The notes under the pieces: model-generated
Database searches by the model: none
What the model was told of the DNA's origin: nothing
Seen by the model: the letters and a program-made list of their open reading frames with translations, nothing else
From: a virus
DNA length: 21,452 bases
Virus record (IMG/VR): IMGVR_UViG_3300010354_010060
Coordinates: 1-21,452 of that record
Direction: 5' to 3' (one strand)
Program-made: the position numbers and the translations under genes
In this document: one piece after another, positions 3,307-21,452 of the stretch
Layout of the letters: each line of letters starts with the position of its first letter
How positions within the stretch are numbered: position 1 is the first letter of the stretch

Positions 3307-3728
3307 AAATAGTTTTAGTTACGGGCGGCTTTGACCCAATACATTCAGGGCACATACGTTATTTTAAAGCAGCAAGAACTCTGGGCGATATGTTAATTGT
3401 AGGGCTAAATTCTGACGAATGGTTAGAACGTAAAAAAGGTCGTGCTTTCATGCCATGGCACGAAAGATTATGTATAATTAACAATCTCGCAATGGTAGAT
3501 GAAGTTTATACGTTTGACGACGAAGATGGTTCAGCTCGACATTTTATCCAACAAGTTAGAGCACACTATCCCGATGCAGAATTAATTTTTGCCAATGGTG
3601 GAGATCGTACGCTAGAAAACATTCCAGAACTAGGCGAACCGGGAGTGGAATTTGTGTTCGGGGTCGGCGGTACGAAAACCAGCAGCAGCAGCGATTTTTT
3701 ACAGCGTTGGTTAGATACCAGCGTTTAA
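3303..3728 (+). CDS. Cytidylyl/adenylyltransferase-like protein (RfaE2/TagD family)
   Basis: A 141-aa nucleotidyltransferase. The start chosen is ATG at 3303, because it begins with the strand MKIVLVTGGFDP and overlaps the methyltransferase stop as ATGA; the frame is open further upstream but only as overlap. TGGFDPIHSGHIRYF contains the HxGH motif that binds the nucleotide phosphates. The C-terminal KTSSSSDFL corresponds to the STS-type motif of the family. These enzymes transfer a nucleotide monophosphate to a sugar or alditol phosphate; RfaE2/HldC (heptose 1-phosphate) and TagD (glycerol 3-phosphate) are the closest models. It is a distant paralogue of the gene at 20400 but stands outside the sugar island. 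The insertion ANGGDRTLENIPE near residue 100 replaces the usual VKGGDY, which is a common feature of phage members of the family. The substrate is uncertain. Confidence 0.8.
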   Translation: MKIVLVTGGFDPIHSGHIRYFKAARTLGDMLIVGLNSDEWLERKKGRAFMPWHERLCIINNLAMVDEVYTFDDEDGSARHFIQQVRAHYPDAELIFANGGDRTLENIPELGEPGVEFVFGVGGTKTSSSSDFLQRWLDTSV

Positions 3729-7602: not shown

Positions 7603-8895
7603 ATGGATTATAAAATTGCAGATATTGCCCTAGCAGACTGGGGTAGAAAAGAAATTGCCATAGCCGAGCACGAAATGCCTGGACTAATGGCCATTAGAAA
7701 AAAATACATGTTAGAGCAACCGCTCAAAGGTGCTCGTATCGCTGGCAGTTTGCATATGACTATTCAGACTGCTGTGTTAATCGAAACTTTGATTGACCTA
7801 GGTGCAGAAGTACGGTGGTCAAGCTGTAATATTTTTTCCACACAAGATCATGCAGCGGCCGCACTTGCAGCTCGAGGTATTCCTGTGTTTGCCTGGAAAG
7901 GTGAAACGGAACAAGAGTACTGGTGGTGCATTGAACAAACACTGAGTGGCCCTGATGGTTGGACACCTAATCTATTGTTAGACGACGGACACGATTTGAC
8001 AGGATATGTTCATGATCGTAAACCAGAACTTATTGGTAGCATCATTGGAGTCAGCGAAGAAACAACCACAGGTATTCATAAACTCATTGAAAGAATACAC
8101 AATCAAACACTACTAATGCCTGCTATCAATGTAAATGATAGTGTAACAAAATCAAAGTTTGATAATCTATACGGTTGTCGTGAAAGTTTGGTAGACGCTA
8201 TCAAACGTGCAACTGATGTAATGATTGCAGGTAAAGTTGCCGTTGTGGCAGGCTACGGAGATGTTGGTAAAGGATCGGCACAGGCTCTAAGAGCTTTGTC
8301 TGCGCAGGTATGGATTACTGAAATTGATCCTATTTGTGCTTTACAGGCAGCGATGGAAGGCTATCGTGTGGTCACAATGGATTATGCAGCCGACAAAGCC
8401 GATATTTTTGTCACTGCCACAGGCAACATCAATGTAATCACTCGAGCGCACATGAGTGCAATGAAAGACAATTCTATTGTTTGCAACATTGGGCATTTTG
8501 ACAGCGAGATTGACATTGCCAGTATCCAAGATTGGTCATGGGACGAAATCAAGCCATTGGTAGATCATGTAACAAGACCCGACGGCGGAAAAATTATTGT
8601 GTTGGCAAAAGGCAGATTGGTCAATTTAGGCTGCGCAACAGGACATCCCAGTTATGTTATGAGTAACAGTTTTACCAATCAGGTCCTGGCACAAATTGAA
8701 CTTTGGCAAAATCAAGATACAGACAAGTATCAAGAAAACAAATTGTACCTGTTGCCTAAGTCAGTGGATGAAGAAGTTGCAAGATTACACTTGGATCATG
8801 TGGGTGCAGAGTTGACTTCGTTGACCGCTGCACAGGCCGACTACATTGGAGTCACTGTACAAGGTCCTTACAAGCCAGACACTTATAGGTATTAA
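7603..8895 (+). CDS. ahcY: S-adenosylhomocysteine hydrolase
   Basis: A complete 430-aa adenosylhomocysteinase. It reversibly splits S-adenosylhomocysteine (SAH) into homocysteine and adenosine using tightly bound NAD. Recognisable blocks in order are the N-terminal [54 protein letters not shown] (usually DDGGD), [33 protein letters not shown], the NAD-binding [31 protein letters not shown], and the C-terminal PYKPDTYRY whose Lys and Tyr reach into the partner subunit NAD site. All appear intact, so the enzyme is probably active. An AAGGAAAAAG sequence precedes the start. A full-length SAH hydrolase is unusual in a phage; the methyltransferases in this window give it a clear job, because SAH inhibits them. 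Its stop codon directly abuts the stop of the convergent dehydratase gene. Confidence 0.95.
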
Positions 8896-9846
8896 TTACC
8901 AGACAAAGTTCTTGGTATAATATTTTACAATATTTGCCAATTCAGTTTCAAACACAGCCTTTGGTTCCCAACCAAGGGCTTTTAATTTTGTATCATCGAT
9001 ACTATATCTTACATCTTGTCCGGGTCTAGTAATACTCAAATCCAAGTGATCGGAATATTCAGACTGGTGAGGGAAAAAGGAATCAATTATCTGCATGGCA
9101 ATATTTAGATTTTGTTCTTCGTAATTGCCAGATATGTTATAAATTTCGTTTTCAACACCTGCTTCAATGATATGAATAACTGCACTAGCAGTATCGCTCA
9201 CGTGCAACCAAGTACGTCTTGGCGTGCCGGCATCGTGCAATGGAATAGTTCTTCCCAACTGTAAGCTTTTAACACTCTTGGGAATGAACTTTTCTGTGTA
9301 TTGACCAATTCCGTAGTTATTGGTGGGTCTTACAATCACATAAGGTACTCGAAATGTACGAGCCCATGCCAATATCAGTTGATCCGCCGCTGCCTTGGTA
9401 GCCGAGTAAGGATTACTGGGTTTTAGTAAATCTGTTTCTGTATGGCTACCTGATTCGATATCTCCGTACACTTCATCTGTACTAAAATGTAACAGCGTGG
9501 GCATTTTGAAACGATGACGTTCTTTAATTAAATTGAGTAAATGATGTACACCATTTACATTGCTTCTTAAGAAAACGTCAGAACTTACAATACTGTTATC
9601 AACATGTGTTTCTGCTGCGGTATTGATAATATAATCGCAGTCGTATAACATATCCAAATCATTAATGTCTGATTCGATAAATTTAAACTTGGTATCTTGT
9701 GTTAGGTCAGGCAGAAACTGTTTGTTGGCTGCGTAAGTAATTTTATCAACTCCAATCACATACCAACCTCGGTCTAAACAGGCTCGAGCGACATGATATC
9801 CAATAAATCCTAAACAGCCGGTTACATAAACTACTTTTGTACTCAT
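8896..9846 (-). CDS. rmlB: dTDP-glucose 4,6-dehydratase (RmlB type)
   Basis: A 316-aa extended short-chain dehydrogenase. VTGCLGFIG (Gly10, 13, 16) is the NAD Rossmann motif. AAETHVDNSI, FSTDEVYGD (Thr123, Asp124, Glu125, the catalytic dehydration pair) and NPYSATKAAAD (Tyr147, Lys151) are the RmlB signatures. IVRPTNNYGIGQYTEKFIPK binds the dTDP-sugar region. It converts dTDP-glucose to dTDP-4-keto-6-deoxyglucose, the entry to rhamnose and other 6-deoxysugars. No RmlA, RmlC or RmlD gene is visible in the window. It is the last gene of the minus-strand operon, coupled by ATGA to the transketolase subunit before it. It is slightly shorter than typical cellular RmlB (about 340-360 aa). A related UDP- or CDP-sugar dehydratase is the main alternative. 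Confidence 0.85.
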   Translation of the reverse strand: MSTKVVYVTGCLGFIGYHVARACLDRGWYVIGVDKITYAANKQFLPDLTQDTKFKFIESDINDLDMLYDCDYIINTAAETHVDNSIVSSDVFLRSNVNGVHHLLNLIKERHRFKMPTLLHFSTDEVYGDIESGSHTETDLLKPSNPYSATKAAADQLILAWARTFRVPYVIVRPTNNYGIGQYTEKFIPKSVKSLQLGRTIPLHDAGTPRRTWLHVSDTASAVIHIIEAGVENEIYNISGNYEEQNLNIAMQIIDSFFPHQSEYSDHLDLSITRPGQDVRYSIDDTKLKALGWEPKAVFETELANIVKYYTKNFVW

Positions 9847-10325
9847 ATTTTTCTTGTAAGGTTAAGATATTCTGGGTTATTGCTGTTGATAAAACGATCC
9901 CAAATGTTTTCTAAATCAATTATACCACTGGGTTTATAACAACCAATATTGGGCAAAGCTTTGAGAACTAGTTCGTCGTCATGTGCCCAATGACTGATGC
10001 CATCGTGACTATAATCATAGTCTCGACCACTACCAATCAGTTTAACAGGAATGTTCTCTGGACTTACATAATTGCGTAATAGTTCAAATGGGCGATATAG
10101 TAAGAAACTGCTCATTGAATAGCACACAGGTTTTAGTCCTTCGTTGGCCATGCCAATAGCAGTGCCTATCATCAAAAATTCAGCTGCACCCACATTATAA
10201 AAACGTTCCGGAAATGCATTTCGAATTTGATCTAGTATGCCAAAACCCAAATCGGCTGTAATGACTCTTATACTTTCATCTTCTACCATTGATTGCAAAA
10301 GGAGGTTAGCACATTCTTTTCTCAT
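9843..10325 (-). CDS. Transketolase-like subunit, pyrimidine-binding domain only
   Basis: A 160-aa protein that corresponds only to the middle (Pyr) domain of transketolase. RFYNVGAAE places the catalytic Glu49 that activates thiamine diphosphate (TPP). ITADLG, IGTAIGMANEGLKPV and the SGRDYDYSHDGISHWAHDDELVLKALPN block are typical transketolase strands. The third, C-terminal transketolase domain is missing: split transketolases usually have a second subunit near 300 aa. It starts by ATGA overlap with the stop of the TPP-binding subunit, so the two are almost certainly made as a pair. Likely reaction: transfer of a two-carbon ketol unit between sugar phosphates or a related carboligation on a sugar. 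The exact substrate is unknown. Confidence 0.85.
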   Translation of the reverse strand: MRKECANLLLQSMVEDESIRVITADLGFGILDQIRNAFPERFYNVGAAEFLMIGTAIGMANEGLKPVCYSMSSFLLYRPFELLRNYVSPENIPVKLIGSGRDYDYSHDGISHWAHDDELVLKALPNIGCYKPSGIIDLENIWDRFINSNNPEYLNLTRKI

Positions 10326-10936
10326 CCTATCAACTCCTCATAATCTTCGGGCTTTAAAACATAATAGTGTGTAAGTAAATTTTTAGCAAACGACCAAGTT
10401 GGGGGATCCGACAGTCTAATATTGATCATGGGAAAGAACGATTTTAGTCTGGCGGTTAGGGATAGTACATCTATACTGTCATATGCTCCCATTCCGTTTA
10501 TGTTGGCATAAACTTTTATATTTTTTAAATTTTTTTCATTTATGTAACGTAAAGCTTCCCATATGCTTCCTTCAGCACATTCACCGTCGCTAATCATTAC
10601 CCAAACATTTCGATCTGGTCTAGCCAATGCGTGGCCTACAGCGATAGGTAGTCCTGATCCTAAACTTCCGGTTGAGCAATATAAATGATTTTCTAAATCT
10701 CTACCAGGATGTATACCATGTTTGTGCAACATTGCCACAGGATCAACGCCGTAGTATTTTTCTAAAACTACATACAGAGCCAAACCGGCGTGTCCATTAC
10801 TTAAAATAAACACTTCGTCGTCTTTACGCTTTGCGTAAATTTCTTCAATGATTGGCAAAGCACTTAGTGTACTGCTGAGATGACTAAGGCGTTCTTGATA
10901 GGTGATATCTATTAATCTACGTTCGGTTGATGTCAT
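10322..10936 (-). CDS. Transketolase-like subunit, TPP-binding domain
   Basis: A 204-aa protein matching the N-terminal (PP) domain of transketolase. LSNGHAGLALYVVL holds the conserved His49. STGSLGSGLPIAVGHALA and VMISDGECAEGSIWEAL followed by NING (Asn147) form the TPP/Mg motif. The first Gly of the canonical GDG is Ser here (SDG, residues 116-118). Usual N-terminal subunits of split transketolases are about 270-300 aa, so this one is compact. It acts with the Pyr subunit encoded next. It overlaps the methyltransferase gene upstream in the operon by 20 bases. Transketolase can make sedoheptulose 7-phosphate, the precursor of the heptose made by the genes at 19341-21452; alternatively it may build a branched sugar for the dTDP branch. 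Both roles are inference. Confidence 0.85.
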   Translation of the reverse strand: MTSTERRLIDITYQERLSHLSSTLSALPIIEEIYAKRKDDEVFILSNGHAGLALYVVLEKYYGVDPVAMLHKHGIHPGRDLENHLYCSTGSLGSGLPIAVGHALARPDRNVWVMISDGECAEGSIWEALRYINEKNLKNIKVYANINGMGAYDSIDVLSLTARLKSFFPMINIRLSDPPTWSFAKNLLTHYYVLKPEDYEELIG

Positions 10937-11489
10937 AATCTATTTCAACAAAGCAAGCAGAACCACCAATGGAATTGTGTTCTGTTATTATGGTTTTATT
11001 TTCGTCTAAAAATTCATTATAGGCTTTTAAAACATCTGACACATGAGTATCGTCAAAGATAATTAGTCCTTTGCCTTGTTTTGTTAGAAGTTTTAGGCTT
11101 AGTTTGTAATCATTTACCACATCCGAATAATGATGACTGCCGTCTATCACAATTATAGAAATATTCATGTCGTTGACCAATTGCTCAGTCAAGTTTGTGT
11201 AAAAACTTGTACTTGTTTCTTCAAACAGTTTTACGTTTGTTAAATCAGCTGTGTGTTCAATGAAACTTAGTTTTTGAGCATTCATTCTTTCACCGGATCT
11301 AACACCCGATGTGTGCTGTGTATGTCCATCTTCAATAAAGGGATCAATGGCATAGCACATTTTATTTGTGTGTTTGTTTGGAATCAATGCAAAACCATCC
11401 CCATTAAAAACACCAATTTCTAAATAATTGCCAGGAAAATCTGTTAATCTATCTAACACAAAATTGTAAAAATGATCTCCAAATGCCAT
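10917..11489 (-). CDS. Class I methyltransferase (Methyltransf_24-like)
   Basis: A 190-aa compact methyltransferase. YLEIGVFNGDG (residues 22-32) is the SAM-binding motif I. CYAIDPFIED follows as strand 2 with its acidic residue. IIVIDGSHHYSDVVNDYKL (about 113-131) is the signature of the Methyltransf_24 and cephalosporin-hydroxylase-like family, whose Asp and His residues often bind a metal. GLIIFDDTH is the following strand. Relatives modify sugars or polyketides by O-methylation, and often sit in surface-glycan clusters. It lies between the FkbM methyltransferase (2-base gap) and the transketolase genes, with a GGAAA sequence before the ATG. The most likely target is a sugar hydroxyl of the glycan made here. 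A hydroxylase-like role is less likely. Confidence 0.75.
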   Translation of the reverse strand: MAFGDHFYNFVLDRLTDFPGNYLEIGVFNGDGFALIPNKHTNKMCYAIDPFIEDGHTQHTSGVRSGERMNAQKLSFIEHTADLTNVKLFEETSTSFYTNLTEQLVNDMNISIIVIDGSHHYSDVVNDYKLSLKLLTKQGKGLIIFDDTHVSDVLKAYNEFLDENKTIITEHNSIGGSACFVEIDYDINRT

Positions 11490-11491
11490 AA

Positions 11492-12199
11492 TTATTTCCA
11501 GGCCAATAGTTGATCGTGAATCACAGATTCGGTTTGATATCCGTGTCGTTGAAACAGCTCGGCAAGTTGTTGTCTATTAGATTCTAAGTTGCCAGGCCAG
11601 GCACTTTCTTTGACATTGGTTTGATGTACTTCCACAAACCAAAAATCTACTCGTCCGGCGATCGGTCCAAGTGTGTCATCTGTAAGTGCTTGCATTTCGG
11701 AACCTTCGATGTCGCATTTTATAAAATCCACATGATCGAGCCCTTCTTTGAATAACAGGGTTTCTAACGTCATGCACTGTACTTGAGTCTCAACACCATT
11801 ACGATCAAGCATGCTATTTGTAGTGCTGTTTTCGTTTATGTAAAATGAAATCATTTCATTATGTGGGCCAATGGCCAATTGTAAAGGTGATATATTTGTA
11901 TGATCTTTTACAATTTCTTTTAATACAGCGAATGTAGACGGAGTAGGTTCTACAGAAACAATTTTACTGCAACTGTCAGCAGCATACAAACTGAATAGAC
12001 CGCAATTGGCTCCTAGATCCAGTATTACCATATCTGTACGATCGGCAAAGATAGGATCATACATTCTATCCTCGTTGATTTGTTTTAAAATAACATCCGT
12101 GTGATTTTCAGGATTGCCAAACCAAGCGGCGACATCTGTGTGTCCACTTTGGTATACATAATCGTTGTGTTTACTTGTTTTAATTTTCTGTTCTATCAT
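11492..12199 (-). CDS. FkbM family methyltransferase
   Basis: A 235-aa SAM-dependent methyltransferase. ILDLGANCGLFSLYAA (about 59-74) is motif I, IVSVEPTPSTFAVLKE is motif II, and FIKCDIEGSEMQAL (about 160-173) is the diagnostic FkbM motif (D.KCDIEG.E). These enzymes O-methylate sugars and natural products and are common in lipopolysaccharide and exopolysaccharide gene clusters. Its product glycan cannot be named. The gene overlaps the epimerase gene upstream in the operon by 20 bases. Confidence 0.88.
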   Translation of the reverse strand: MIEQKIKTSKHNDYVYQSGHTDVAAWFGNPENHTDVILKQINEDRMYDPIFADRTDMVILDLGANCGLFSLYAADSCSKIVSVEPTPSTFAVLKEIVKDHTNISPLQLAIGPHNEMISFYINENSTTNSMLDRNGVETQVQCMTLETLLFKEGLDHVDFIKCDIEGSEMQALTDDTLGPIAGRVDFWFVEVHQTNVKESAWPGNLESNRQQLAELFQRHGYQTESVIHDQLLAWK

Positions 12200-13022
12200 A
12201 ATTTGCCTTTAGTAAAAAATCTCTAATGCCTGTTTCTAACGTGTATTCGCAATCGAATCCCAATTTGAATGATTTAGCTGTATCGCATACCCATACTGTG
12301 TTTTCAAAAGCCTTGCGCATTTCTGCCACTTTGGCAATTGGAGCATCTAGTTTACCAGTTACTTTTATCCATAAATCTAACAAATCAAAGTTACTGGTTT
12401 GCGTTCCGCTGCCAAAATTTACTATTTCGCCAGGTGCCAAATTCCATTCCTGTAGTACCAAATTGATTCCGCGAACAAAGTCATTGATGTAAATGAAATC
12501 ATGATGTCCTTGATAGAGTGTCATTGGTTCATCATATTTGAATGCACGATACAATCTAGGAAACAGTCGGTGCATGCGTTCACCTGGGCCATAAACACTG
12601 TAAGGGCGCACAATCCAAATTGGCAAATGATGTAGTCTAGCCCAACCTTGACACATTAGACTGGCAGCACCCTTGGTAGCTTGATAATAATCAACTGGCT
12701 TAAGTGAATCTGTTTCGGCGCTGGCGTGATTGGTTGGACCATATTCACTGCTGCTGCCAATTTGTATAACTTTACATGATTGTTTGCATTCTCTTACGTA
12801 TTCTAAAATTGTCTGAACCATTAGTATATTGGGTTCAAACATATGTTCATAATCGTAAATTTCCGCAGCAGAATTTATAATAGCATCGGGTTGAAATTTA
12901 TGCAAACATTCATATAGATGTTCATTTCTCTGAAACTGATAAATTTCATGACCGCGTTCGCTATAATATCTGACTAAATTTTTTCCAACGAAACCTGTGG
13001 CACCGGTTATAAAAATTTTCAT
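12180..13022 (-). CDS. NAD-dependent nucleotide-sugar epimerase/dehydratase
   Basis: A 280-aa extended SDR enzyme. FITGATGFVGKN (Gly7, 10, 13) binds NAD(P). IGSSSEYGPT supplies the catalytic Ser/Thr, and DYYQATKGAA holds the Tyr113-x3-Lys117 pair. RPYSVYGPGERMHRLFP and INDFVRGINLVL are typical of the family. It lacks the Asp-Glu pair after Ser/Thr that marks a 4,6-dehydratase, so epimerase, 4-reductase (RmlD-like or GDP-mannose reductase-like) or dehydrogenase activity is more likely than dehydration. It could act on the product of the RmlB enzymes in the same island. ATGA overlap with the glycosyltransferase gene upstream shows operon coupling. Confidence 0.83.
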   Translation of the reverse strand: MKIFITGATGFVGKNLVRYYSERGHEIYQFQRNEHLYECLHKFQPDAIINSAAEIYDYEHMFEPNILMVQTILEYVRECKQSCKVIQIGSSSEYGPTNHASAETDSLKPVDYYQATKGAASLMCQGWARLHHLPIWIVRPYSVYGPGERMHRLFPRLYRAFKYDEPMTLYQGHHDFIYINDFVRGINLVLQEWNLAPGEIVNFGSGTQTSNFDLLDLWIKVTGKLDAPIAKVAEMRKAFENTVWVCDTAKSFKLGFDCEYTLETGIRDFLLKANYDRTEN

Positions 13023-13660
13023 TTTGCGTGATTTGATAGGTGATAGTTGGCTCTTTCTAATCTCGTGGGTTTATGTGTGCCGGGCCAATGAACAATCCAA
13101 TCGCCGGGTTCCCATGCACCACTATTACCCAGTATGTCAAATCTGGCGTCGCAGTAATCATAAATTTCAGGTTCATAACTGTTCATGAATTTTTGTGGAA
13201 CAATTTTTACAATGTTTTGATACTGTTCAATGGTATCAATAATAACCTGTTGTTCTGCCCACTCGACAGCTTTGTACTCTGATTCTCGGTCAATGATCAT
13301 TTGTAAGTATGCTCGACCTTGTTCTGAATTGCGTACCAAGAAGTTACCCGAATTAAGATTGAGACGATCTACAGGAACAATAAAATGGTAGTTGTCGTCA
13401 ATTCGATCTTGGATACTGATAGTTTGATTGGTAATCATTGCATCGCATTCACTAAACAACAACCATTCTATTTCTGGATGTGTATTGAGCACTTCCAGAG
13501 CAAAGTGAATTTTGTTAAAACCGGTAATTGTGCTATACTTCATTTCAGTAAGCACATGAAATTGATAACCATATCTATCGCAATATTCTTTTTTAGATTG
13601 GTCAGTTAGTGCAGCCAAATCAGCATAATTGGCATCATGTAAACTAGCAACAGCATGCAT
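13019..13660 (-). CDS. GT34-like glycosyltransferase
   Basis: A 213-aa GT-A fold protein, first gene of the minus-strand operon. YCDRYGYQFHVLTE, then HPEIEWLLFSECDAMITNQT (the acidic ECD near residue 71 sits where the metal-binding DxD lies), LNSGNFLVRNSEQG, and DWIVHWPGTHK at the end follow the order of the GMA12/MNN10 (GT34) galactosyl/mannosyltransferase family. It probably transfers a sugar from a nucleotide sugar. The exact DxD is degenerate (E-C-D), so activity is plausible but not certain. A late-promoter-like AATAAATA lies 26 bases upstream of the ATG, and AAGGATACTT provides a weak Shine-Dalgarno. Confidence 0.72.
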   Translation of the reverse strand: MHAVASLHDANYADLAALTDQSKKEYCDRYGYQFHVLTEMKYSTITGFNKIHFALEVLNTHPEIEWLLFSECDAMITNQTISIQDRIDDNYHFIVPVDRLNLNSGNFLVRNSEQGRAYLQMIIDRESEYKAVEWAEQQVIIDTIEQYQNIVKIVPQKFMNSYEPEIYDYCDARFDILGNSGAWEPGDWIVHWPGTHKPTRLERANYHLSNHAK

Positions 13661-13686
13661 AAGTATCCTTGAAATTCAATGTAAGG

Positions 13687-13694
13687 TATTTATT
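13687..13694 (-). promoter_or_regulatory. T4-late-like promoter element AATAAATA of the minus-strand operon
   Basis: On the minus strand the gap reads TATAATAAATACC, with AATAAATA 26 bases before the ATG at 13660. It is the only promoter candidate for the seven-gene operon. The same bases, read on the plus strand, form TATTTATTATACTA ahead of the GT17 gene, so the site may be shared by divergent transcripts. Confidence 0.5.
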
Positions 13695-13709
13695 ATACTA
13701 AGTATTGTC

Positions 13710-14567
13710 ATGAAAATCTACGATTGTTTTACATTTTTTAACGAGTTTGAATTACTAGAACTTAGACTACGTGAGCTTTATGATCACGTGGATTATTTTG
13801 TTTTGGTTGAAGCCAATAGAACATTTCAAAATAAGTTTAAACCATTATACTATGCAGATCGCAATCAACAGTTTGATCAATGGAAAGATAAAATCATCTA
13901 CGTGCCTGTAACAGACATGCCTACGGACACTGATCCATGGGGTCGAGAACGACATCAACGTGATGCAATACTACGTGGCTTGCCCAATGCTGATGCCAAT
14001 GATATTGTCATGATTGGTGACGCAGATGAAATACCCAGACCTGAAACTGTACAGCGATTGCGTACAAGTGCATCGTCGGTTTGGGGATTTAGAATGCCGT
14101 TGTTCAATTTCAAATACAATTATATGATGGTAACACAGGATCTATATTCAGTGTGGTCCGGCGCTGTGCGTAGACATGCCCTAACCAGTCCCGAAGACTT
14201 CCGTCGCATGCGTCATGCATTAAATGGATTTCCGTTAAATCATAGCGATGGTACAGTAGAGATTGTGGAACATGCCGGTTGGCATTTTACATATTTAGGT
14301 ACAGAAGATTTTGCTCGTAGCAAGATACAAAGCTTTGCACACGACGAAACCAATCGTCCAGAAATACTAGATCAATTGGATATAGAGGATAGTATACAAC
14401 GAGGGGTCGGTATCATACGTACCAATGAAGATTATCGATTTGTTCCGGTTGTGTTAGATGAATACTTTCCAAAAACAGTTGTGAACAATTGTGAACAATT
14501 TGCAGATCAAATTATTTTAGACACTGCTACCACAAGTGCTAGACAATACCTTCCTCCAATGCTATAA
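13710..14567 (+). CDS. GT17 family glycosyltransferase
   Basis: A 285-aa protein; ATG at 13710 is chosen because MKIYDCFTFFNEFELLELRL is the conserved start of glycosyltransferase family 17, and upstream codons overlap the divergent gene and promoter. HVDYFVLVEANRTFQ, FDQWKDKIIYVPV, RERHQRDAI and MIGDADEIPR (Asp104-Ala-Asp106, DxD metal site) are all family hallmarks; EHAGWHFTYLG follows. In animals the family adds a bisecting GlcNAc to N-glycans; bacterial and phage members have unknown acceptors. It starts the plus-strand half of the sugar island. No Shine-Dalgarno sequence is evident. A direct repeat GTGAACAATT at 14480-14501 lies inside the gene. Confidence 0.9.
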   Translation: MKIYDCFTFFNEFELLELRLRELYDHVDYFVLVEANRTFQNKFKPLYYADRNQQFDQWKDKIIYVPVTDMPTDTDPWGRERHQRDAILRGLPNADANDIVMIGDADEIPRPETVQRLRTSASSVWGFRMPLFNFKYNYMMVTQDLYSVWSGAVRRHALTSPEDFRRMRHALNGFPLNHSDGTVEIVEHAGWHFTYLGTEDFARSKIQSFAHDETNRPEILDQLDIEDSIQRGVGIIRTNEDYRFVPVVLDEYFPKTVVNNCEQFADQIILDTATTSARQYLPPML

Positions 14568-14590
14568 TAACGATTCATAATGGAGGTCCT

Positions 14591-14740
14591 ATGTTTGAAT
14601 CGATTGAAATTCGTCAAGTTGCAAATGGTTTTATTGTAACTGTAAATCTTGAAGATGAAACCCGAGAGTTTGTGTTTGATACTGCTCGCAAGGCAATGAG
14701 TCATATCAAGCAATTTGTTGCCCCAAAAGCGGGCGAATAA
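14591..14740 (+). CDS. Small hypothetical protein, 49 aa
   Basis: Short gene starting MFESIEIRQVANGFIVTVNLEDETREFVFDTARKAMSHIK. It is preceded by TGGAGGTCCT, an excellent Shine-Dalgarno six bases before the ATG. The predicted fold is a three-stranded beta hairpin followed by a helix, a pattern seen in many small proteins of T4-like marine phages. It has no membrane or signal segment. The TAA stop lies within the late-promoter-like AATAAATA of the next gene. Function unknown; the real ribosome binding site and the ordinary codon use make it a convincing gene. Confidence 0.75.
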   Translation: MFESIEIRQVANGFIVTVNLEDETREFVFDTARKAMSHIKQFVAPKAGE

Positions 14741-14743
14741 ATA
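14736..14743 (+). promoter_or_regulatory. T4-late-like promoter element AATAAATA
   Basis: GCGAATAAATACATTTTTC, with AATAAATA 26 bases before the ATG at 14770, the same spacing as the copy at 13687 on the other strand. GAGGATTC before the ATG serves as Shine-Dalgarno. It probably drives the plus-strand sugar genes from 14770 on. Confidence 0.5.
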
Positions 14744-14769
14744 CATTTTTCAACTATAATTGAGGATTC

Positions 14770-15804
14770 ATGTCAAAAAAAGTATTAATCACCGGCGGTG
14801 CTGGATTTATTGCGCATCATGTAATTGATTTAATTTTACAAACTACAGATTGGCATATAGTATGTTTGGATAGACTAGATATTTCTGGTAATCTGAATCG
14901 ACTACACGATATGTTACAGGATCATGATCCTCATGAAGTAGCACGTCGTATGAAAATTGTGTTTCACGATCTCAAAGCAGAAATTAATAGTCAAATCGTA
15001 CACGACATTGGTCCAGTGGATATCATTCTACATCTAGCAGCCGGTAGTCATGTGGATCGTTCAATTGCTTACCCCATGGAGTTTGTGCAGGACAATGTGA
15101 TTGGCACTGTCAATATGTTAGACTATGCACGAAAAAATCTTCCCGGTCTCGAACGCTTTGTATATTTCTCGACGGACGAGATTTATGGGATTGCACCGCC
15201 CGGTGTGGCTTATAAGGAATATGATCGATATAACTCGACCAATCCCTATTCGGCCAGCAAGGCAGCAGCCGAAGAGTTTTGCGTGGCGTATGAAAATACT
15301 TACAAAATGCCTATCGTTGTTACGCACACTATGAACGTGTTCGGCGAACGTCAGCATCCGGAAAAATTCATTCCGGCCACTATTCAAAAGGTGAGAGATG
15401 GGGAAACAGTCATCATACACAGTGATCCAACCCGTACCGTGGCAGGTTCGAGAATGTACATCCATGCTAGAGATGTCGCTGAGGGTCTTATGTTCATACT
15501 CGGCCTCGAGGATTATCGTCACCAAGGGGATTACGGACATGCTCACTGCCCAAAGTTTAATCTTGTTGGTACTGAAGAAATTGATAATCTTACCCTAGCA
15601 CAAATGATTGCACGAGCCGTAGGCCAAGAACTCAAGTATGAGATGACAGACTTTCATACCAGTCGTCCAGGCCACGACATGCGTTATGCACTAGATGGCG
15701 GACTGCTAAAGAGTCTAGGGTGGGAGCCAAGAATCAAGTTGAGCGAACGCATTGATGAGATGGTGCAGTGGACTTTGGCAAATGAAAGATGGTTACGTAA
15801 ATGA
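14770..15804 (+). CDS. dTDP-glucose 4,6-dehydratase-like protein, second copy
   Basis: A 344-aa RmlB-type enzyme, a full-length match to cellular members. ITGGAGFIAHH binds NAD, with Ala15 in place of the third Gly. HLAAGSHVDRSI, FSTDEIYG (Thr135, Asp136, Glu137) and NPYSASKAAAEE (Tyr160, Lys164) are the catalytic signatures. GERQHPEKFIPATI, RDVAEGL, RPGHDMRYALD and LGWEP complete the family pattern. It should produce a 4-keto-6-deoxy nucleotide sugar. It differs clearly from the 8896 copy, so it may use another sugar nucleotide or come from another donor. Bases about 15120-15540 are near 48% GC by hand count, above the surrounding DNA, which suggests recent acquisition. It has GAGGATT as Shine-Dalgarno and overlaps the next gene (ATGA). 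Confidence 0.88.
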   Translation: MSKKVLITGGAGFIAHHVIDLILQTTDWHIVCLDRLDISGNLNRLHDMLQDHDPHEVARRMKIVFHDLKAEINSQIVHDIGPVDIILHLAAGSHVDRSIAYPMEFVQDNVIGTVNMLDYARKNLPGLERFVYFSTDEIYGIAPPGVAYKEYDRYNSTNPYSASKAAAEEFCVAYENTYKMPIVVTHTMNVFGERQHPEKFIPATIQKVRDGETVIIHSDPTRTVAGSRMYIHARDVAEGLMFILGLEDYRHQGDYGHAHCPKFNLVGTEEIDNLTLAQMIARAVGQELKYEMTDFHTSRPGHDMRYALDGGLLKSLGWEPRIKLSERIDEMVQWTLANERWLRK

Positions 15805-16511
15805 TTAAACATGGTTTTGTAGTTACTTCTGCTGTTAACAGTAAGTTTGGTGTTTATAGCCCGGCTGCACGTATGCAACAAACCTTGACTACGTTGCAGA
15901 ATGTTAGAGCAAAGGTTCCTGATTGTAAAATTATTGTCATGGAATGTGCAGGTACTGCACTAACGGATGCACAAAGCGAACTGATCGAAGAAAATTGTGA
16001 TTTACTGTTAGACTTTAGTCGTGATCCTGATGTGCAGGCAATTTACCAAAGTGATAATTGGGATGTGGTAAAAAACTCCACAGAGATAATGTGTTTTGGT
16101 CGCGCCTTGCGTATGTGTCAGGATGATGGCGATTTTGCAGGCTTAGATAGAATTCATAAAATGTCCGGTCGGTATATTCTCAACAATGAATTCGACTTAG
16201 ACGTGTATGAACAACACCCCGACCGTATTATTATTGGCCCAAAACATGCCAGTCAATTTCCATTGGAAATAACCGGTATTGAATTACAGTACATGGCAAG
16301 ATTATGGTCTTGGCCGGCTGATCAAACTGAACGTGTAATTCAAGTATACGAAGATAGTTTAAGTTACATTGGTCAAAGAGTAAGTCAAGGCGGCTACGCT
16401 GATATTGAACATGTGTTATATAAATTTTTACCGGCAGACTTGGTAACAGAATTACCTGTGTTGGGAGTTGAAGGTTCCATTGCTCCCAATGGCGTTGCTA
16501 TAAGGAACTAA
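15801..16511 (+). CDS. Unknown protein in glycan cluster, 236 aa
   Basis: I do not recognise a named family. It has an alpha/beta look: MIKHGFVVTSAVNSKFGVYS, then CKIIVMECAGTAL, then NCDLLLDFSRDPD. A central HKMSGRYILNNEFDLDVYE resembles the K.SGRY element of several bacterial cell-surface glycosyltransferase-like proteins. IIIGPKHASQFPLEITGIELQYMARLWSWP follows, where an Asp/His-rich nucleotide site is not obvious. No membrane span or signal peptide is seen. It is coupled to the dehydratase by ATGA and followed one base later by the methyltransferase, so it belongs to the sugar operon. A GT-A type glycosyltransferase is the best guess. Confidence 0.5.
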   Translation: MIKHGFVVTSAVNSKFGVYSPAARMQQTLTTLQNVRAKVPDCKIIVMECAGTALTDAQSELIEENCDLLLDFSRDPDVQAIYQSDNWDVVKNSTEIMCFGRALRMCQDDGDFAGLDRIHKMSGRYILNNEFDLDVYEQHPDRIIIGPKHASQFPLEITGIELQYMARLWSWPADQTERVIQVYEDSLSYIGQRVSQGGYADIEHVLYKFLPADLVTELPVLGVEGSIAPNGVAIRN

Positions 16512-16512
16512 A

Positions 16513-17733
16513 ATGCACAGTTATACAGAACTAAATGAATGCATTGCATGCGGATGCAACGATCTAACCCTTACAATCGATCTTGGCAGTCAACCGTTGG
16601 CCAACGGTTACCTTGACGACCCTGACGACAAGTTCAAAGAGACTCATTATCCATTGGCAGTATATCGATGCACAGATTGTAATCATTTACAGTTGTCGCA
16701 TATTGTAGATCCGCAATTGATTTATAAAGACTATGCTTATGTAAGTGGCACAAGTCAAACATATCTTGATTATATGGATTGGTTTGCACGTTGGTGTAGA
16801 GAATATACCGAATGTTGGCACGGTCATGTATTGGACATTGGCTGCAATGACGGCAGTCAGCTGGATGCTTTTGCTGCGATTGGATTTAGTACACACGGCG
16901 TGGATCCTGCAGAAAATCTTTATAAAGTCAGCAGTAAAAAAGGACACAAAATTGTTCAAGGGTTTTGGGACAAACATTCTATTAAACAACTTAAACACAA
17001 CAAATTTGACATAGTGGTTTCGCAAAATGCCTTTGCTCATGTTCCTGATCCTGTAAAATATCTAGAACTGCTAGAACCAGTGATGCGTGAAAAGGGATTG
17101 TTGTTCGTGCAAACAAGCCAGGCTGACATGGTGTTGAATGGAGAGTTTGATACTATCTATCATGAGCATATAAGTTTTTATTGTATAGAATCCATGCGAG
17201 CATTGGCCAAACGAGCAGGATGGAATTTGATCGACGCTGTTAAGACTCCCATTCACGGAACAAGTTATGTGTTTGTGTTGAGTCCCAATTACAAACGTCC
17301 CAAGCATATTAAAAATTTGATTGCCATGGAGTCTGCATTGCAGAATCCGGTCACATATGAAAATTGGTCTAATCAAGTGACCGGAATTCGAGACTCACTT
17401 GTTAGTGTATGCAACGAATATCAACAGTTGGGGTATCGTCTAGTTGGATATGGCGCTGCGGCCAAAGGTATGACTTTGCTAAACTATACCAATTTGGCTC
17501 TAGAATGTGTGATTGACGACAATCCGTTAAAACAAGGACGTTATACACCTGGCAGTGCTGTACCTATTGTGGGCAGGGACTACCTTGATCAATTGACTGA
17601 CAAAGACAAGGTACTGTTTGTTCCTTTGGCCTGGAATGTGTTTGAGGAAATCAAACAAAAAATTATCAACAGTCGATCCAATCCCGACGATCGATTCCTG
17701 CGTTATTTTCCAGAGGTAGAAGTTGAATATTGA
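16513..17733 (+). CDS. Sugar C-methyltransferase (TylC3/NovU type)
   Basis: A 406-aa three-domain methyltransferase. Domain 1 is a zinc-binding module with Cys10, Cys13, Cys53 and Cys56 (CIAC...CTDC). Domain 2 is the SAM core with LDIGCNDGSQ (about 107-116), FDIVVSQNAFAHVPDP and the YHEHISFY signature (Tyr216, His217, Glu218, His219), which supplies the catalytic base. Domain 3 begins at about 310 with RLVGYGAAAKGMTLLNY and VIDDNPLKQGRYTPGS, the C-methyltransferase C-terminal domain. Relatives add a methyl group to C-3 of dTDP-4-keto-deoxysugars, making branched-chain sugars such as mycarose or noviose. Two RmlB-type enzymes in the island could supply the keto-sugar. A GGAAC sequence precedes the ATG. 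Confidence 0.9.
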   Translation: MHSYTELNECIACGCNDLTLTIDLGSQPLANGYLDDPDDKFKETHYPLAVYRCTDCNHLQLSHIVDPQLIYKDYAYVSGTSQTYLDYMDWFARWCREYTECWHGHVLDIGCNDGSQLDAFAAIGFSTHGVDPAENLYKVSSKKGHKIVQGFWDKHSIKQLKHNKFDIVVSQNAFAHVPDPVKYLELLEPVMREKGLLFVQTSQADMVLNGEFDTIYHEHISFYCIESMRALAKRAGWNLIDAVKTPIHGTSYVFVLSPNYKRPKHIKNLIAMESALQNPVTYENWSNQVTGIRDSLVSVCNEYQQLGYRLVGYGAAAKGMTLLNYTNLALECVIDDNPLKQGRYTPGSAVPIVGRDYLDQLTDKDKVLFVPLAWNVFEEIKQKIINSRSNPDDRFLRYFPEVEVEY

Positions 17734-18595
17734 ACGTCCGTTACAAATATTAGTGCGTAGACGTGCAGCACTTGGTGATGTGATCATGAGCACGGGTGTG
17801 GTCCGCGAACTTAAAAATAGATACACATGCGAAATAGACATAGCCACAGAGTTTCCTAATGTGTACGATAACAATCCACATGTGAGAGCAATCTATCATA
17901 CCAACGCAATGCCGGAGCCAGCAAATTATGATTTATACGTTAATTTGGATGATGCCTACGAGCTTAATCCTCTCAATCATTATCTGGACAGTTATTTCTA
18001 TCGTGCTTTTGGTTCATCAACAGTGGATCAAAAAGAACCAGAACTGTTTGCCAGCCAATTTGATATAGATGCTGTCAATCATTTTTTTGAAGACAACGAA
18101 ATAGATGAATACATCGTAGTGCATATCAGACAATGGTATTGGCCATTAAAAAATATGAACTGGGATACTTGGTACGCAGTATTTGAACGACTATTCGCAG
18201 CAAGAACAGATTTTAAAATTGTGTGTGTGGGAACTGCACAAGATGGGTATGTGGAACACCCGTTGTTTGTTGATGCTAGAGATCAATTGAGTGTGCAGCA
18301 ACAGAAACTTTTAATGGATCACGCTAGATGTTTTGTGGGTATAGACAGCGGACCTTATCATATTGCAGTGGCCAGTGGCACACACATCATAAGTTTGCAC
18401 ACACACTTGTTACCAGAACGAATAGCACCACTGCACAAACCATATACTCCTATCTTGAGTGCAGTAGATTGTGTGGGTTGCAATGACAATCAAGAACGAC
18501 CTGTGCGACAGGTTGTTTGTAAACACGGTGATTTTAGATGTAAAGATAATTTTGATGCAGATAAAATCGCTAAAAACATTTTAGAGTTACTATGA
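17723..18595 (+). CDS. GT9-family (heptosyltransferase-like) glycosyltransferase
   Basis: A 290-aa protein. The start is TTG at 17723: an in-frame TAG lies two codons upstream, and the next start codon (GTG) would cut the first beta strand. AGAGGTAGAAG in front supplies a Shine-Dalgarno. ILVRRRAALGDVIMSTGVVRELKNRY is the classic GT9 beginning. EYIVVHIRQWYWPLKNM and FVGIDSGPYHIAVASGTHIISL (about 211-232) are the nucleotide-binding second half. CVGC...C...C near the end is often seen in GT9 proteins. GT9 enzymes transfer heptose from ADP-heptose to lipid A-core or protein acceptors, which fits the heptose genes downstream. Ten-base overlap with the preceding gene. Confidence 0.88.
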   Translation: MNIERPLQILVRRRAALGDVIMSTGVVRELKNRYTCEIDIATEFPNVYDNNPHVRAIYHTNAMPEPANYDLYVNLDDAYELNPLNHYLDSYFYRAFGSSTVDQKEPELFASQFDIDAVNHFFEDNEIDEYIVVHIRQWYWPLKNMNWDTWYAVFERLFAARTDFKIVCVGTAQDGYVEHPLFVDARDQLSVQQQKLLMDHARCFVGIDSGPYHIAVASGTHIISLHTHLLPERIAPLHKPYTPILSAVDCVGCNDNQERPVRQVVCKHGDFRCKDNFDADKIAKNILELL

Positions 18596-19341
18596 TTTTT
18601 AGACATTCAGGAACATTTGGTGATTTAATTTACAGTTTAAGTGTAGTCAAAAAAATGGGCGGCGGCACTTTTGCTGTACACATTGAAAACATTGAAAAGT
18701 GTGTGGCCCAATATGGTTACAGACCAGACGAAGTAGATCCTGCGCATCAAGGAAGATTTCGTAATGCGGACTTTGACCTGCTTAGACCCTTGCTATCAAG
18801 ACAATCATACATTGATAAAGTAACAGTATGGACCGGCAATCACGATGTTGATCTAGATCGTTTCCGCGGTGTATTGTTTAGAGGTTTTGAAGGTAACTAT
18901 GTCGAAGCATACTATAGAACATTCAATATACCTTTCACTACGGATGTGTACAATGAAACTTGGTTAGAGGCAGATGCCAAACGAGTGGCACCTATTGTTA
19001 TTAATAGAACATTTAGATATCGTTGCCCAGAAGGCAACGGAAGTTGGCAAAACATTTTAGCGCAATCTGACATTGTAAATAATGGGGTGTTTGTTGGCAC
19101 TGAAGAAGAGCATGAAGATTTTGTGCGAGTCACTGGTTTTCCTGTAAAATACTATGCTGTGAAAGATTTTAAGGAACTAGCAGATGTGATTGCTGGTGCA
19201 GATTTGTTTATGGGCAATCAAAGTGCTGCATACAGTATTGCCATGGGATTGGGCAAATCCTCGATTCTAGAAACAATTAAAATTAAACCATTGGCAAATA
19301 ACGAATGTTATTTTCCAAGAGACAACTGTCAATATTTTTAA
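18592..19341 (+). CDS. GT9-like glycosyltransferase, second copy
   Basis: A 249-aa protein with the same layout as GT9: MIFRHSGTFGDLIYSLSVVKKMGGG at the start resembles the ALGD...S..VVR element, and ADLFMGNQSAAYSIAMGLGKSSILE near residue 200 matches the DSG..H.A..... motif with Asn-Gln-Ser in the place of Asp-Ser-Gly. It is divergent, so donor and activity are uncertain; phages and marine bacteria carry many such short GT9-like proteins. ATGA overlap with the previous gene and TAATG overlap with the kinase after it put it in the heptose operon. Confidence 0.72.
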   Translation: MIFRHSGTFGDLIYSLSVVKKMGGGTFAVHIENIEKCVAQYGYRPDEVDPAHQGRFRNADFDLLRPLLSRQSYIDKVTVWTGNHDVDLDRFRGVLFRGFEGNYVEAYYRTFNIPFTTDVYNETWLEADAKRVAPIVINRTFRYRCPEGNGSWQNILAQSDIVNNGVFVGTEEEHEDFVRVTGFPVKYYAVKDFKELADVIAGADLFMGNQSAAYSIAMGLGKSSILETIKIKPLANNECYFPRDNCQYF

Positions 19342-20072
19342 TGAAGATTCTATTAGTAGGCGACAACGGTATTGACCAATACCAATTTGGAACAGTGACT
19401 AGAATCAGTCCTGAAGCTCCTGTGCCCGTTCTAAATTATACACATACAGTTACAAAACCTGGCATGGCAGCTAATGTTCGAGACAATCTAGAACGATTAA
19501 AATGTGATGTAGATTTTGTGCATGGCGTTAAAACCTGTATCAAGACTCGAGTAATTGATCAAAAGACCGGCCAACATCTAGTAAGGATAGATCAAGACAT
19601 ACCTAGCAAGCCCGTTAAAATTGACTACACTGACATCGACAAGTATAATGCTATTGTTGTCAGCGATTATAACAAAGGATCAGTAGAATATGAGACTGTC
19701 GAAGATCTTCGCAAGAATTATTCGGGTCCTATTTTTGTTGACACTAAAAAAACTGATCTCGCGAGATTTGAAGGGTGTTTTGTTAAAATTAATGCGGTTG
19801 AATATGCTGCTGCTAAAACAGTGCCCACAGAACTTATTATTACTCTCGGCCGAGATGGAGTACAATACCAAGAACATAAGATTTCTACTCCACAAGTAGA
19901 GGCGTTTGATGTATGCGGGGCAGGTGATACTTTCTTGTCTGCTCTCGCATACAACTACGTTTTATCTGGAGATATACTTGCTGCCATTCAGTTTGCCACT
20001 CGAGCAGCCAGTGTAACCATTCAACACATTGGTGTTTACAGTCCCACATTAGAAGAAATTGAGAAAACATGA
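19341..20072 (+). CDS. hldA: D-glycero-beta-D-manno-heptose 7-phosphate kinase (PfkB family)
   Basis: A 243-aa ribokinase/PfkB-type kinase; ATG 19341 is chosen because MKILLVGDNGIDQYQFG is the conserved start and it overlaps the previous stop (TAATG). RISPEAPVPVL (residues 21-31) followed by PGMAANVRDNL is diagnostic for the kinase half of HldE/RfaE. VSDYNKG (108-114), VDTKK and DVCGAGDTFLSALAY (Gly193-Asp196, Asp196 the catalytic base) complete it. It phosphorylates heptose 7-phosphate at C-1. It is much shorter than the cellular kinase domain (about 310-320 aa). The binding-site Gly-Gly of PGGAANV is Gly-Met here. In many bacteria this domain is fused to the adenylyltransferase; here the two are separate genes with a cupin between. 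Confidence 0.87.
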   Translation: MKILLVGDNGIDQYQFGTVTRISPEAPVPVLNYTHTVTKPGMAANVRDNLERLKCDVDFVHGVKTCIKTRVIDQKTGQHLVRIDQDIPSKPVKIDYTDIDKYNAIVVSDYNKGSVEYETVEDLRKNYSGPIFVDTKKTDLARFEGCFVKINAVEYAAAKTVPTELIITLGRDGVQYQEHKISTPQVEAFDVCGAGDTFLSALAYNYVLSGDILAAIQFATRAASVTIQHIGVYSPTLEEIEKT

Positions 20073-20437
20073 CAAGATTAAATGGAAAAGTTGATAAGCT
20101 TTGGGGATATGAAGATATTTGGTGTACTAACGATCTGTATTGTGGAAAATTCATGCACTTCAATACAGATTCTAGATTTAGTATGCATTTTCATTCTGTC
20201 AAAGATGAAACATGGTATGTGTTAAGCGGTAAGTTTATAGTTAAAACCATTAATACTCAAGATGCCACGCAAAGTGAAACAGAATTGAATGTTGGCGATA
20301 CTTGGCATAATCCACCATTGTTGCCACATCAATTGATTTGCATAGAAGAAGGCACTATAATAGAAGTTTCAACCGCAGATTCAGTAGAGGATAATTATCG
20401 TGTATTCCCCGGGGATAGCCAGAAGAGTAATAGTTAA
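20069..20437 (+). CDS. Cupin-domain protein
   Basis: A 122-aa single-domain cupin. The first motif is MHFHSVKDETWYVLSG (His40, His42, Glu47). The second is NPPLLPHQLICIEEGTIIEVST (His87). These are the usual metal ligands, so an intact metal site is expected. It resembles the type II mannose-6-phosphate isomerase-like domain of sugar-nucleotide pathways. It sits between the kinase (ATGA overlap) and the adenylyltransferase (38-base overlap). A role as a sugar-phosphate isomerase or epimerase, perhaps in the heptose steps not otherwise covered here, is inference; binding or regulatory function is also possible. Confidence 0.8.
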   Translation: MTRLNGKVDKLWGYEDIWCTNDLYCGKFMHFNTDSRFSMHFHSVKDETWYVLSGKFIVKTINTQDATQSETELNVGDTWHNPPLLPHQLICIEEGTIIEVSTADSVEDNYRVFPGDSQKSNS

Positions 20438-20819
20438 TGGAACTTTCGACATACTACATCGTGGGCACATTGAAATGCTTAACTTTGCCAGGAGTCAAGG
20501 TTCATATTTGCTAGTTTGCATAGACAGTGATAGATCGGTTCGCGAACTCAAAGGCGAATCAAGACCCATTAACAATCAAGAAGATCGCAAGTTTGCCCTA
20601 GACAATCTAAAATGTGTTGACGCAGTATGGATCTTTGACACACAAGCGGAACTAGAACACATTTGTAAATTGGTCAAACCAGACCTAATGGTCAAAGGAT
20701 CAGACTACCAACACAAACCTATTACTGGCAGACAATATTGTAAAGATGTAAAATTTTATCCGCTGGTACAAAACTATTCAACGAGTAAAATAATTGAAGA
20801 TATTAATAACAGGAAGTAG
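20400..20819 (+). CDS. hldC: D-glycero-beta-D-manno-heptose 1-phosphate adenylyltransferase
   Basis: A 139-aa nucleotidyltransferase. The likely start is GTG at 20400, with AGAGGA eight bases upstream and no ATG before the first motif. RRVIVNGTFDILHRGHIEML carries the HxGH motif (His20-His23). CIDSDRSVRELKGESRPINNQEDRKFAL, KPDLMVKGSDYQHK and NYSTSKIIEDI match the HldE C-terminal domain / HldC very well. It joins AMP to heptose 1-phosphate to give ADP-D,D-heptose, the substrate of the epimerase that follows. Its stop lies 26 bases into the next gene. Confidence 0.88.
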   Translation: MYSPGIARRVIVNGTFDILHRGHIEMLNFARSQGSYLLVCIDSDRSVRELKGESRPINNQEDRKFALDNLKCVDAVWIFDTQAELEHICKLVKPDLMVKGSDYQHKPITGRQYCKDVKFYPLVQNYSTSKIIEDINNRK

Positions 20820-21452
20820 AGGATTCATTGGCAGTCATGCTGTAAGCTTTTGGCACAAGCTGGGCGACCATGAAATCGTCACCTACGAATGGGACGAGCA
20901 CACATTACCTAGAATCGAAGGCCTAGACTGGGTTTTTCATTTTGGTGCAATAAGCAGCACTACCGAACGAGATGTAGCTCGAGTCATGCGACAGAATGTA
21001 GACTTTAGCATTTGGTTATACGAGGAATGTAGAAAACACGATGTCAATCTTCAATGGAGTAGCTCTGCGAGCGTGTATGGCCTTGGTACAGATTTTAGAG
21101 AAACCGCGCCCGTTGATCCGCGGAGTCCGTATGCGTGGTCCAAATACCTCTTCGAACACTACGTGGAAAAGCATCCGACGCATGTTCGGTGCCAGGGATT
21201 TAGATACTTTAATGTATATGGTGCAAACGAAATGCACAAAGGAACACAAGCTAGTCCTTACTATCAGTTTGCTGTTCAGGCACAATCCACTGGAATTATA
21301 AAAGTATTTGAAGGAAGCGACAATTTCCGTAGAGACTTTATATCAGTTGATCATGTATTAGGTGTTCAATTTCAATTTGTAAATTGCGACATCAAAGAAA
21401 ACGGCATATGGAATGTAGGCACTGGGCAAACAAAGTCATTTATGGATATTGC
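20794..21452 (+). CDS. hldD: ADP-L-glycero-D-manno-heptose 6-epimerase (partial, runs off the window)
   Basis: Extended SDR gene, 219 codons visible and open at the end. The start is TTG at 20794, because an in-frame TAA lies directly before it and the conserved MKILITGSRGFIGSH begins there. WSSSASVYG and SPYAWSKYLFEHY hold the Ser, Tyr and Lys catalytic residues. FRYFNVYGANEMHKGTQAS, FEGSDNFRRDF and GIWNVGTGQTKSF are characteristic of HldD/RfaD rather than other sugar epimerases. It converts ADP-D,D-heptose to ADP-L,D-heptose. It overlaps the adenylyltransferase gene by 26 bases. Bases 21040-21200 reach about 53-55% GC by hand count, above the surroundings, so this stretch may be of cellular origin. 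Confidence 0.88.
   Translation, partial: MKILITGSRGFIGSHAVSFWHKLGDHEIVTYEWDEHTLPRIEGLDWVFHFGAISSTTERDVARVMRQNVDFSIWLYEECRKHDVNLQWSSSASVYGLGTDFRETAPVDPRSPYAWSKYLFEHYVEKHPTHVRCQGFRYFNVYGANEMHKGTQASPYYQFAVQAQSTGIIKVFEGSDNFRRDFISVDHVLGVQFQFVNCDIKENGIWNVGTGQTKSFMDI

Follow-up and report, generated by a model that had tools for sequence, protein, structure and literature searches.

Lipopolysaccharide (LPS) gene clusters have been described in cyanophages since 2010, when T4-GC 304, 305, 307 and 308 were reported as LPS genes co-occurring in three phages and the question was left as to whether such clusters are functional or "stuffer DNA" (PMC3037559). The idea that they act against superinfection is repeated in PMC2984593, and the pelagimyophage account offers the same idea for islands carrying rfaE and glycosyltransferase genes (PMC7029224). 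Heptose kinase and UDP-galactopyranose mutase are also listed among the viral-fraction transcripts of Lake Baikal (PMC9611531). We analysed a related cassette in the IMG/VR viral contig IMGVR_UViG_3300010354_010060, the whole of which (21,452 bp) is referred to as the window. The cassette extends from position 8896 to the end of the window and may encode a soluble pathway that assembles a glycan of heptose and deoxysugars on virion proteins. We assign this proposal, for which we infer the substrates, the order of the sugars, the acceptor and the benefit, a probability of about 0.5. An earlier sequence-only reading considered such a route unusual in a T4-like phage. Comparison with other T4-like genomes does not bear this out, as the same heptose module was found in them and has been published for cyanophages (2010), and rfaE plus glycosyltransferase islands have been published for pelagimyophages. 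Its kinase is present in the isolates P-SSM2, P-SSM5, S-CAM1, S-CAM3, S-SSM7, S-SM2 and P-TIM68, and the entire module (kinase, adenylyltransferase, cupin and HldD-like epimerase) in the three genomes inspected (P-SSM2, S-CAM1 and P-TIM68).

Gene content of the two arms

Genes were identified by comparison with Pfam, NCBIfam, PHROGs and the PDB, and every gene type named in the sequence-only reading was confirmed. The kinase, the adenylyltransferase, the 6-epimerase, two RmlB-type dehydratases, the C-methyltransferase, an epimerase, two further methyltransferases and at least four glycosyltransferases are all intact open reading frames (ORFs), with significant profile matches or, for GT9b, a predicted fold. 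The two operons placed around position 13687 do diverge, as two gene runs separated by 49 bp. That reading missed the split transketolase pair (9843-10936), the cupin, an ORF of 49 amino acids and a fifth glycosyltransferase. In total, the cassette comprises about 17 enzymes, which look soluble. The features of the left arm, the gap and the right arm are as follows.

8896-9846, minus strand: RmlB-type nucleoside-diphosphate (NDP)-sugar 4,6-dehydratase 1, RmlB_1 (TIGR01181, 301 bits, cut-off 365; STDE and YxxxK)
9843-10325, minus strand: pyrimidine-domain half of a transketolase, 160 amino acids, without the C-terminal domain (PF02779, 5.7e-19)
10322-10936, minus strand: thiamine pyrophosphate (TPP)-domain half of a transketolase, 204 amino acids (split-chain transketolase 6yak, 2.5e-10)
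10917-11489, minus strand: methyltransferase of the Methyltransf_24 family, MT24 (PF13578, 3.4e-10)
11492-12199, minus strand: FkbM-type methyltransferase (PF05050, 2.5e-16)
12180-13022, minus strand: NDP-sugar epimerase/reductase with SSSE instead of the TDE motif (PF01370, 6.4e-36)
13019-13660, minus strand: GT34-like glycosyltransferase (PF05637, 3.1e-20)
13661-13709, no strand: divergent gap between the arms, 49 bp, read from the sequence
13710-14567, plus strand: GT17 glycosyltransferase, partly varying with the left arm (PF04724, 1.4e-31)
14591-14740, plus strand: small ORF of 49 amino acids, read from the sequence, with a Shine-Dalgarno-like GGAGG
14770-15804, plus strand: RmlB-type dehydratase 2, RmlB_2 (TIGR01181, 240 bits, cut-off 365; STDE and YxxxK)
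15801-16511, plus strand: hidden fifth glycosyltransferase of predicted GT-A fold (no Pfam match; AlphaFold2 predicted local distance difference test score, pLDDT, 92)
16513-17733, plus strand: sugar 3-C-methyltransferase (MtmC 4rv9, 4e-60; TcaB9, 1.7e-43)
17723-18595, plus strand: heptosyltransferase-like protein GT9a (PF01075, 1.9e-9; TIGR02201, 6.6e-12)
18592-19341, plus strand: heptosyltransferase-fold protein GT9b (AlphaFold2 pLDDT 91)
19305-20072, plus strand: minimal HldE-N-like heptose-7-phosphate kinase (TIGR02198, 8e-41)
20069-20437, plus strand: cupin (phrog_7851, 2.1e-39)
20400-20819, plus strand: HldE-C-like heptose-1-phosphate adenylyltransferase (TIGR02199, 3e-39, below the cut-off; NGTFDILHRGH)
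20794-21450, plus strand: HldD-like ADP-heptose 6-epimerase, truncated by the contig end, its C-terminus absent (TIGR02197, 6.5e-50; 1eq2, 2.9e-33)

The heptose branch lies in the right arm. The kinase is shortened, with the RISPEAPVPV and GAGDT motifs present and a score of 140 bits against an equivalog cut-off of 345; for the HldD-like epimerase, the best match among solved structures is HldD of E. coli. The cupin family is labelled "cysteine dioxygenase" in cyanophage records, where it is a plain cupin. The GD motif of GT9a is invariant in its alignment, as is the N-terminal catalytic aspartate in the alignments of both GT9a and GT9b. No significant match to the GT9b sequence was found in Pfam or the PDB; Foldseek aligned its model with 3tov, WaaC and TibC (E 6e-7 to 2e-5). 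The two proteins thus resemble WaaC/WaaF and the protein heptosyltransferase TibC in predicted fold, N-terminal GD motif and the presence of ADP-heptose genes in the same operon, although GT9b is just 249 amino acids long and has GNQS at the position of GIDSG in GT9a. As both adjoin the ADP-heptose genes, heptosyl transfer is their obvious predicted use. Downstream of HldD, two sister phages encode an aminotransferase of class V (L010:13000-14202 and L020:14786-15961) that is close to the aspartate-glyoxylate aminotransferase BhcA (592 bits, cut-off 650).

The route to ADP-heptose was called near-complete in the sequence-only reading, which is an overstatement. Three of its five steps (GmhA, HldE-N, GmhB, HldE-C and HldD) are present. 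The window ends within HldD, so GmhA and GmhB were sought in its relatives. A survey of 35 viral records, three of them complete cyanophage genomes, revealed no sedoheptulose-7-phosphate isomerase GmhA (SIS_2), and matches to the GmhB-type phosphatase profile TIGR01656 were limited to two of the 35 (G024 and G026), with none in the clade of the window. Neither the small HAD-type protein of cyanophages nor an RmlA-type nucleotidyltransferase was found in this clade, the records of which are fragments, limiting all four absence calls; an RmlA-type enzyme does occur in G060, a more distantly related record. These absences suggest that heptose phosphate and NDP-hexose are supplied by the host. The cyanophage protein annotated as "phosphoheptose isomerase" (P-SSM2, L003:14740-15084; also L004 and L005) was considered as the missing GmhA and rejected. 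It bears the HAD-type motifs DxDGT and DDK, one of its homologues has a weak match to a family of capsule phosphatases, and no SIS_2 domain was found in these genomes; the annotation looks wrong.

The right arm also contains genes for a deoxysugar. Both RmlB proteins belong to the extended short-chain dehydrogenase/reductase family and were scored with the RmlB dTDP-glucose profile; the identity of RmlB_2 across phages is mostly 64-94%. The C-methyltransferase contains Methyltransf_13/23/14 domains, and aligns along almost its entire length with MtmC and TcaB9, with the CxxC/CxxC zinc motif and YHEH kept, here in a phage context. It is therefore a fair inference that the cassette makes a 3-C-methylated 6-deoxy sugar, and the earlier proposal of a T4-like phage cassette for a glycan with heptose and a methylated, C-branched deoxysugar is supported. 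For the hidden glycosyltransferase, Foldseek aligned the model with glycogenin and alpha-1,3-galactosyltransferase (E about 2e-7, probability 1.00). The 49-amino-acid ORF resembles one of 57 amino acids at the same place in another contig of the clade (L012_6, L012:5016-5189).

In the left arm, the two transketolase domains adjoin the 4,6-dehydratase. A homologous split pair lies in a bacterial O-antigen-type operon (L245), beside an RfbG-like dehydratase and an RfbF-like cytidylyltransferase (identified by eye from the sequence). The phage halves are shorter (204 + 160 versus 273 + 311 amino acids) and lack the C-terminal domain. The RfbF/RfbG-like neighbours of the bacterial pair suggest, by analogy, that the left arm may extend a 4-keto-6-deoxy sugar by two carbons. 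Transketolase matches in faecal "bacteriophage" records were set aside, as these records look like bacterial contigs and provide no hint of a pathway.

Phage origin, constraint and exchange of the left arm

Three genes to the left of the cassette serve to place it.

2-394, plus strand: C-terminal part of the T4-type recombinase uvsX, left core anchor (phrog_97, 6.5e-16)
1855-2307, plus strand: recombination mediator uvsY, left core anchor (phrog_231, 9.7e-15)
7603-8895, plus strand: S-adenosylhomocysteine (SAH) hydrolase AhcY, abutting the cassette and convergent with RmlB_1 (PF05221, 6e-132)

The presence of uvsX and uvsY in the left third of the window identifies a T4-like phage; megablast found no match to the window among phage isolates. 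Relatives of its kinase are encoded in 46 viral contigs, 17 of which (L006-L021 and L036; 76-90% identity) form the clade of the window. The right arm is common to all 17, as far as each contig extends, and left-arm genes are also present in three, two with both arms (L009 and L036) and one with part of the left arm (L018). Independent contigs show T4-type genes on both sides of the glycan genes: uvsX and uvsY are connected to AhcY and then RmlB_1 in L052 and L053, uvsY is connected to AhcY in L054, and L010, L014 and L020 continue from HldD to a UvsW-like helicase (phrog_16, 3.4e-75 in L010). Phage kinases have 243-271 amino acids, versus 304-313 for bacterial HldE kinase domains, with gaps common to the phage forms, and they constitute one clade apart from bacterial HldE, within which some long branches leave the order unsure. 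The cassette is genuine T4-like phage DNA. The case that the sequence-only reading had named against itself, the fusion of a bacterial contig to phage DNA by assembly error, would fit the bacterial origin of most of the gene families, but is contradicted by the contigs with both arms, by those spanning the left (L052 and L053) and right (L010, L014 and L020) joints, and by the shared deletions and separate clade of the phage kinases; its probability is close to negligible.

In this phage group, genes for radical S-adenosylmethionine proteins of several kinds, one with a SPASM domain, have been inserted repeatedly near uvsX/uvsY and AhcY (window 606-1868 and 5584-6438; L087, L097 and L116). A second HldE-C-like nucleotidyltransferase lies near uvsY (window 3303-3728), and recurs in AhcY phages outside the glycan island, with 56-82% identity.

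Relatives of AhcY are encoded on more than 100 viral contigs (80 loci, L052-L131, being 76-90% identical to that of the window), with just three matches among phage isolate records. The sampled phage sequences form one clade (support 100) distinct from bacterial AhcY. The enzyme could, as a prediction, recycle the SAH released by the methyltransferases of the cassette, relieving SAH inhibition. It also occurs without a glycan cassette; the tie is one of neighbourhood and logic, and is not exclusive. In a small search of the open-access literature, AhcY was not described for this phage group in any paper. AhcY was rejected as a pointer to the host, the bacterial matches being at most 71% identical and coming from Legionellales, other proteobacteria and Ignavibacteria alike. 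In another clade, a class II aldolase-like gene precedes the heptose module and AhcY (L067:5193-6911 and L077:2518-4281), with a peroxiredoxin-like gene also present in L067.

Median pairwise ratios of nonsynonymous to synonymous divergence (dN/dS) against relatives were 0.04-0.16 for the testable cassette genes, with 0.075 for uvsX and 0.089 for uvsY, values that are rough, given the high dS (often 1-3), but clear in direction; MT24 and the C-methyltransferase were left out as too divergent. The tested genes are under purifying selection and are as constrained as the recombination genes. Alternatively, the cassette might be filler without function, a possibility already raised about the cyanophage clusters (PMC3037559), and its position in an island and the differences in gene content among relatives would be compatible with this. 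However, the core-like dN/dS of every testable gene disfavours that explanation, as do the frames remaining open across the right-arm contigs, and we consider it highly improbable.

Phages with the same right arm have exchanged their left arms. When six right-arm proteins are combined into one tree (1516 columns), the left-arm types are scattered over it and at least three changes are required. The transketolase type is found in the window, L009 and L036, and also in L018, as judged from its FkbM, epimerase and GT34 genes (the contig ends before the transketolase); L007, L008, L014 and L020 have an RfbH-type left arm. The sisters L007 (RfbH) and L009 (transketolase), grouped at 100/100, differ in their left arms. 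Such sister pairs are the firmest part of this result, as recombination may also have affected the concatenated right-arm proteins. RfbH of L014 exceeds the NCBIfam cut-off (445 versus 423 bits), as does the UDP-galactopyranose mutase (Glf) of L010. GT17 identity to the window is 74% in L009 and L036, versus 45-57% in L007, L008, L014, L018 and L020; L018 thus pairs a window-type left arm with a different GT17, indicating that the breakpoints differ. This trade resembles O-antigen serotype exchange and, together with constraint similar to that of the recombination genes, makes it very probable that the cassette matters to this lake-water T4-like phage. In L007 (1-1369), rfbH is in two frames (1-639 and 641-1369), through a frameshift or sequencing error. 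The left-arm place of L012 (3-4011) holds genes for secreted proteins similar to PstS, which binds phosphate, and to a phosphate porin (identified by eye).

Proposed pathway and possible acceptors

We propose that the cassette is a phage-owned, all-soluble glycosylation pathway. Host-made heptose phosphate would be converted to ADP-heptose by the kinase, the adenylyltransferase and HldD, and passed to one or two GT9 heptosyltransferases. RmlB_2 and the 3-C-methyltransferase would generate a methyl-branched 6-deoxy sugar, which the GT-A enzyme would attach. One further sugar, the exchangeable one, would be made and attached by the left arm. In the window, it is probably a 4-keto-6-deoxy sugar that is lengthened by the split transketolase and also methylated; in sister phages, it would be a 3,6-dideoxyhexose where RfbH is present, or a sugar of the galactofuranose type where Glf is. 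Assembly of the glycan would most likely take place in the cytoplasm, on virion proteins of the tail or fibre, such that trading the left arm would alter the glycan type of the particle. A broader picture, in which freshwater T4-like phages have glycan "serotypes" with a constant virion-protein heptose core, caps traded as a cassette and a dedicated AhcY relieving SAH inhibition, is offered tentatively, as less probable than the pathway itself.

We place glycosylation of virion proteins ahead of remodelling of the host surface, with about even confidence, by analogy and on three grounds. No convincing transmembrane segment was found in any cassette protein (one marginal segment lies at the Rossmann start of RmlB_2), so the cassette appears to lack its own flippase, polymerase and initiating phosphoglycosyltransferase. 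The heptose module is located between tail fibre genes in P-SSM2 and S-CAM1, and in other clades it adjoins genes for RCC1/LamG giant proteins (L022 and L025), an Mtd_N-type protein (L033) or virion structural proteins (L045 and L048). Finally, among phage isolates the hidden glycosyltransferase has a single match, in S-SRM01, close to the gene for the distal long tail fibre. Several points weigh on the other side. No ORF of at least 850 amino acids was found in the roughly 10 kb around the module in the window's own clade, which is why the argument from virion genes is one of analogy; the T4 late-promoter motif TATAAATA has 0 sites in the window, giving no sign of late expression, although with 2 expected by chance this count tells little; both RmlB proteins, the kinase, the adenylyltransferase and HldD score below their NCBIfam equivalog cut-offs; and donor and acceptor specificity is not readable from sequence at these identities.

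The glycosyltransferases might instead extend or cap the LPS core or O-chain of the infected cell, so that neither rival phages nor released virions adsorb to it again. Heptose, like the GT9 enzymes, is a hallmark of the LPS inner core, and left-arm exchange involving RfbH and Glf resembles O-antigen serotype variation. Modification of the host O-chain is also the view preferred in PMC2984593 and PMC7029224. Cytoplasmic enzymes acting on lipid-linked intermediates would suffice for a lytic phage, and host flippases could serve the product, if the host also gave a ligase. The cassette nevertheless contains no membrane protein, initiating transferase or polymerase, and the repeated location of the module beside virion genes in other clades also speaks against host remodelling; we rank it second and consider it doubtful. 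Attachment of the sugars to modified bases for evasion of restriction, as done by relatives of T4, is much less probable still. No PF00303 (thymidylate synthase/hydroxymethylase) match was found in the sampled clade records (L012, L014, L015, L017 and L019), which are fragments, and we know of no use of C-methyl or ADP-heptose chemistry in DNA, which also counts against such hypermodification. Virus-encoded DNA glycosyltransferases are cited in PMC12619734, but cyanomyoviruses are reported to show no evidence of base modification (PMC2984593).

Returning to virion-protein glycosylation, a glycan on the particle would represent protein heptosylation made by a phage and a source of variation at the particle surface; if placed on the host, it would be a phage-made serotype switch.

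Comparison with cyanophage and pelagimyophage clusters

The cassette shares with the cyanophage "LPS" clusters (P-SSM2, S-SM2, S-SSM7, S-CAM1 and P-TIM68; PMC3037559) the same four-gene module in a T4-like genome, with shortened kinases forming one clade with respect to those of bacteria. It differs from them in several features. The three inspected cyanophages add the small HAD-type protein labelled "phosphoheptose isomerase" to the module, GT9a of the window has no match in phage isolates, and the C-methyltransferase and split transketolase have no close match among them. The host-recognition clusters of pelagimyophages (PMC7029224) likewise combine rfaE with glycosyltransferases in a hypervariable island of a T4-like genome, and serotype conversion and avoidance of co-infection are proposed for them. 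Unlike the window, freshwater pelagimyophages are reported to be without LPS genes, and the part of that account considered here mentions neither a defined arm that is exchanged, nor selection, nor genes for C-methyl sugars. This kind of cassette is therefore already known from marine phages, and it is the trading of the left arm, the exact sugars implied and the sign of selection that look new here.

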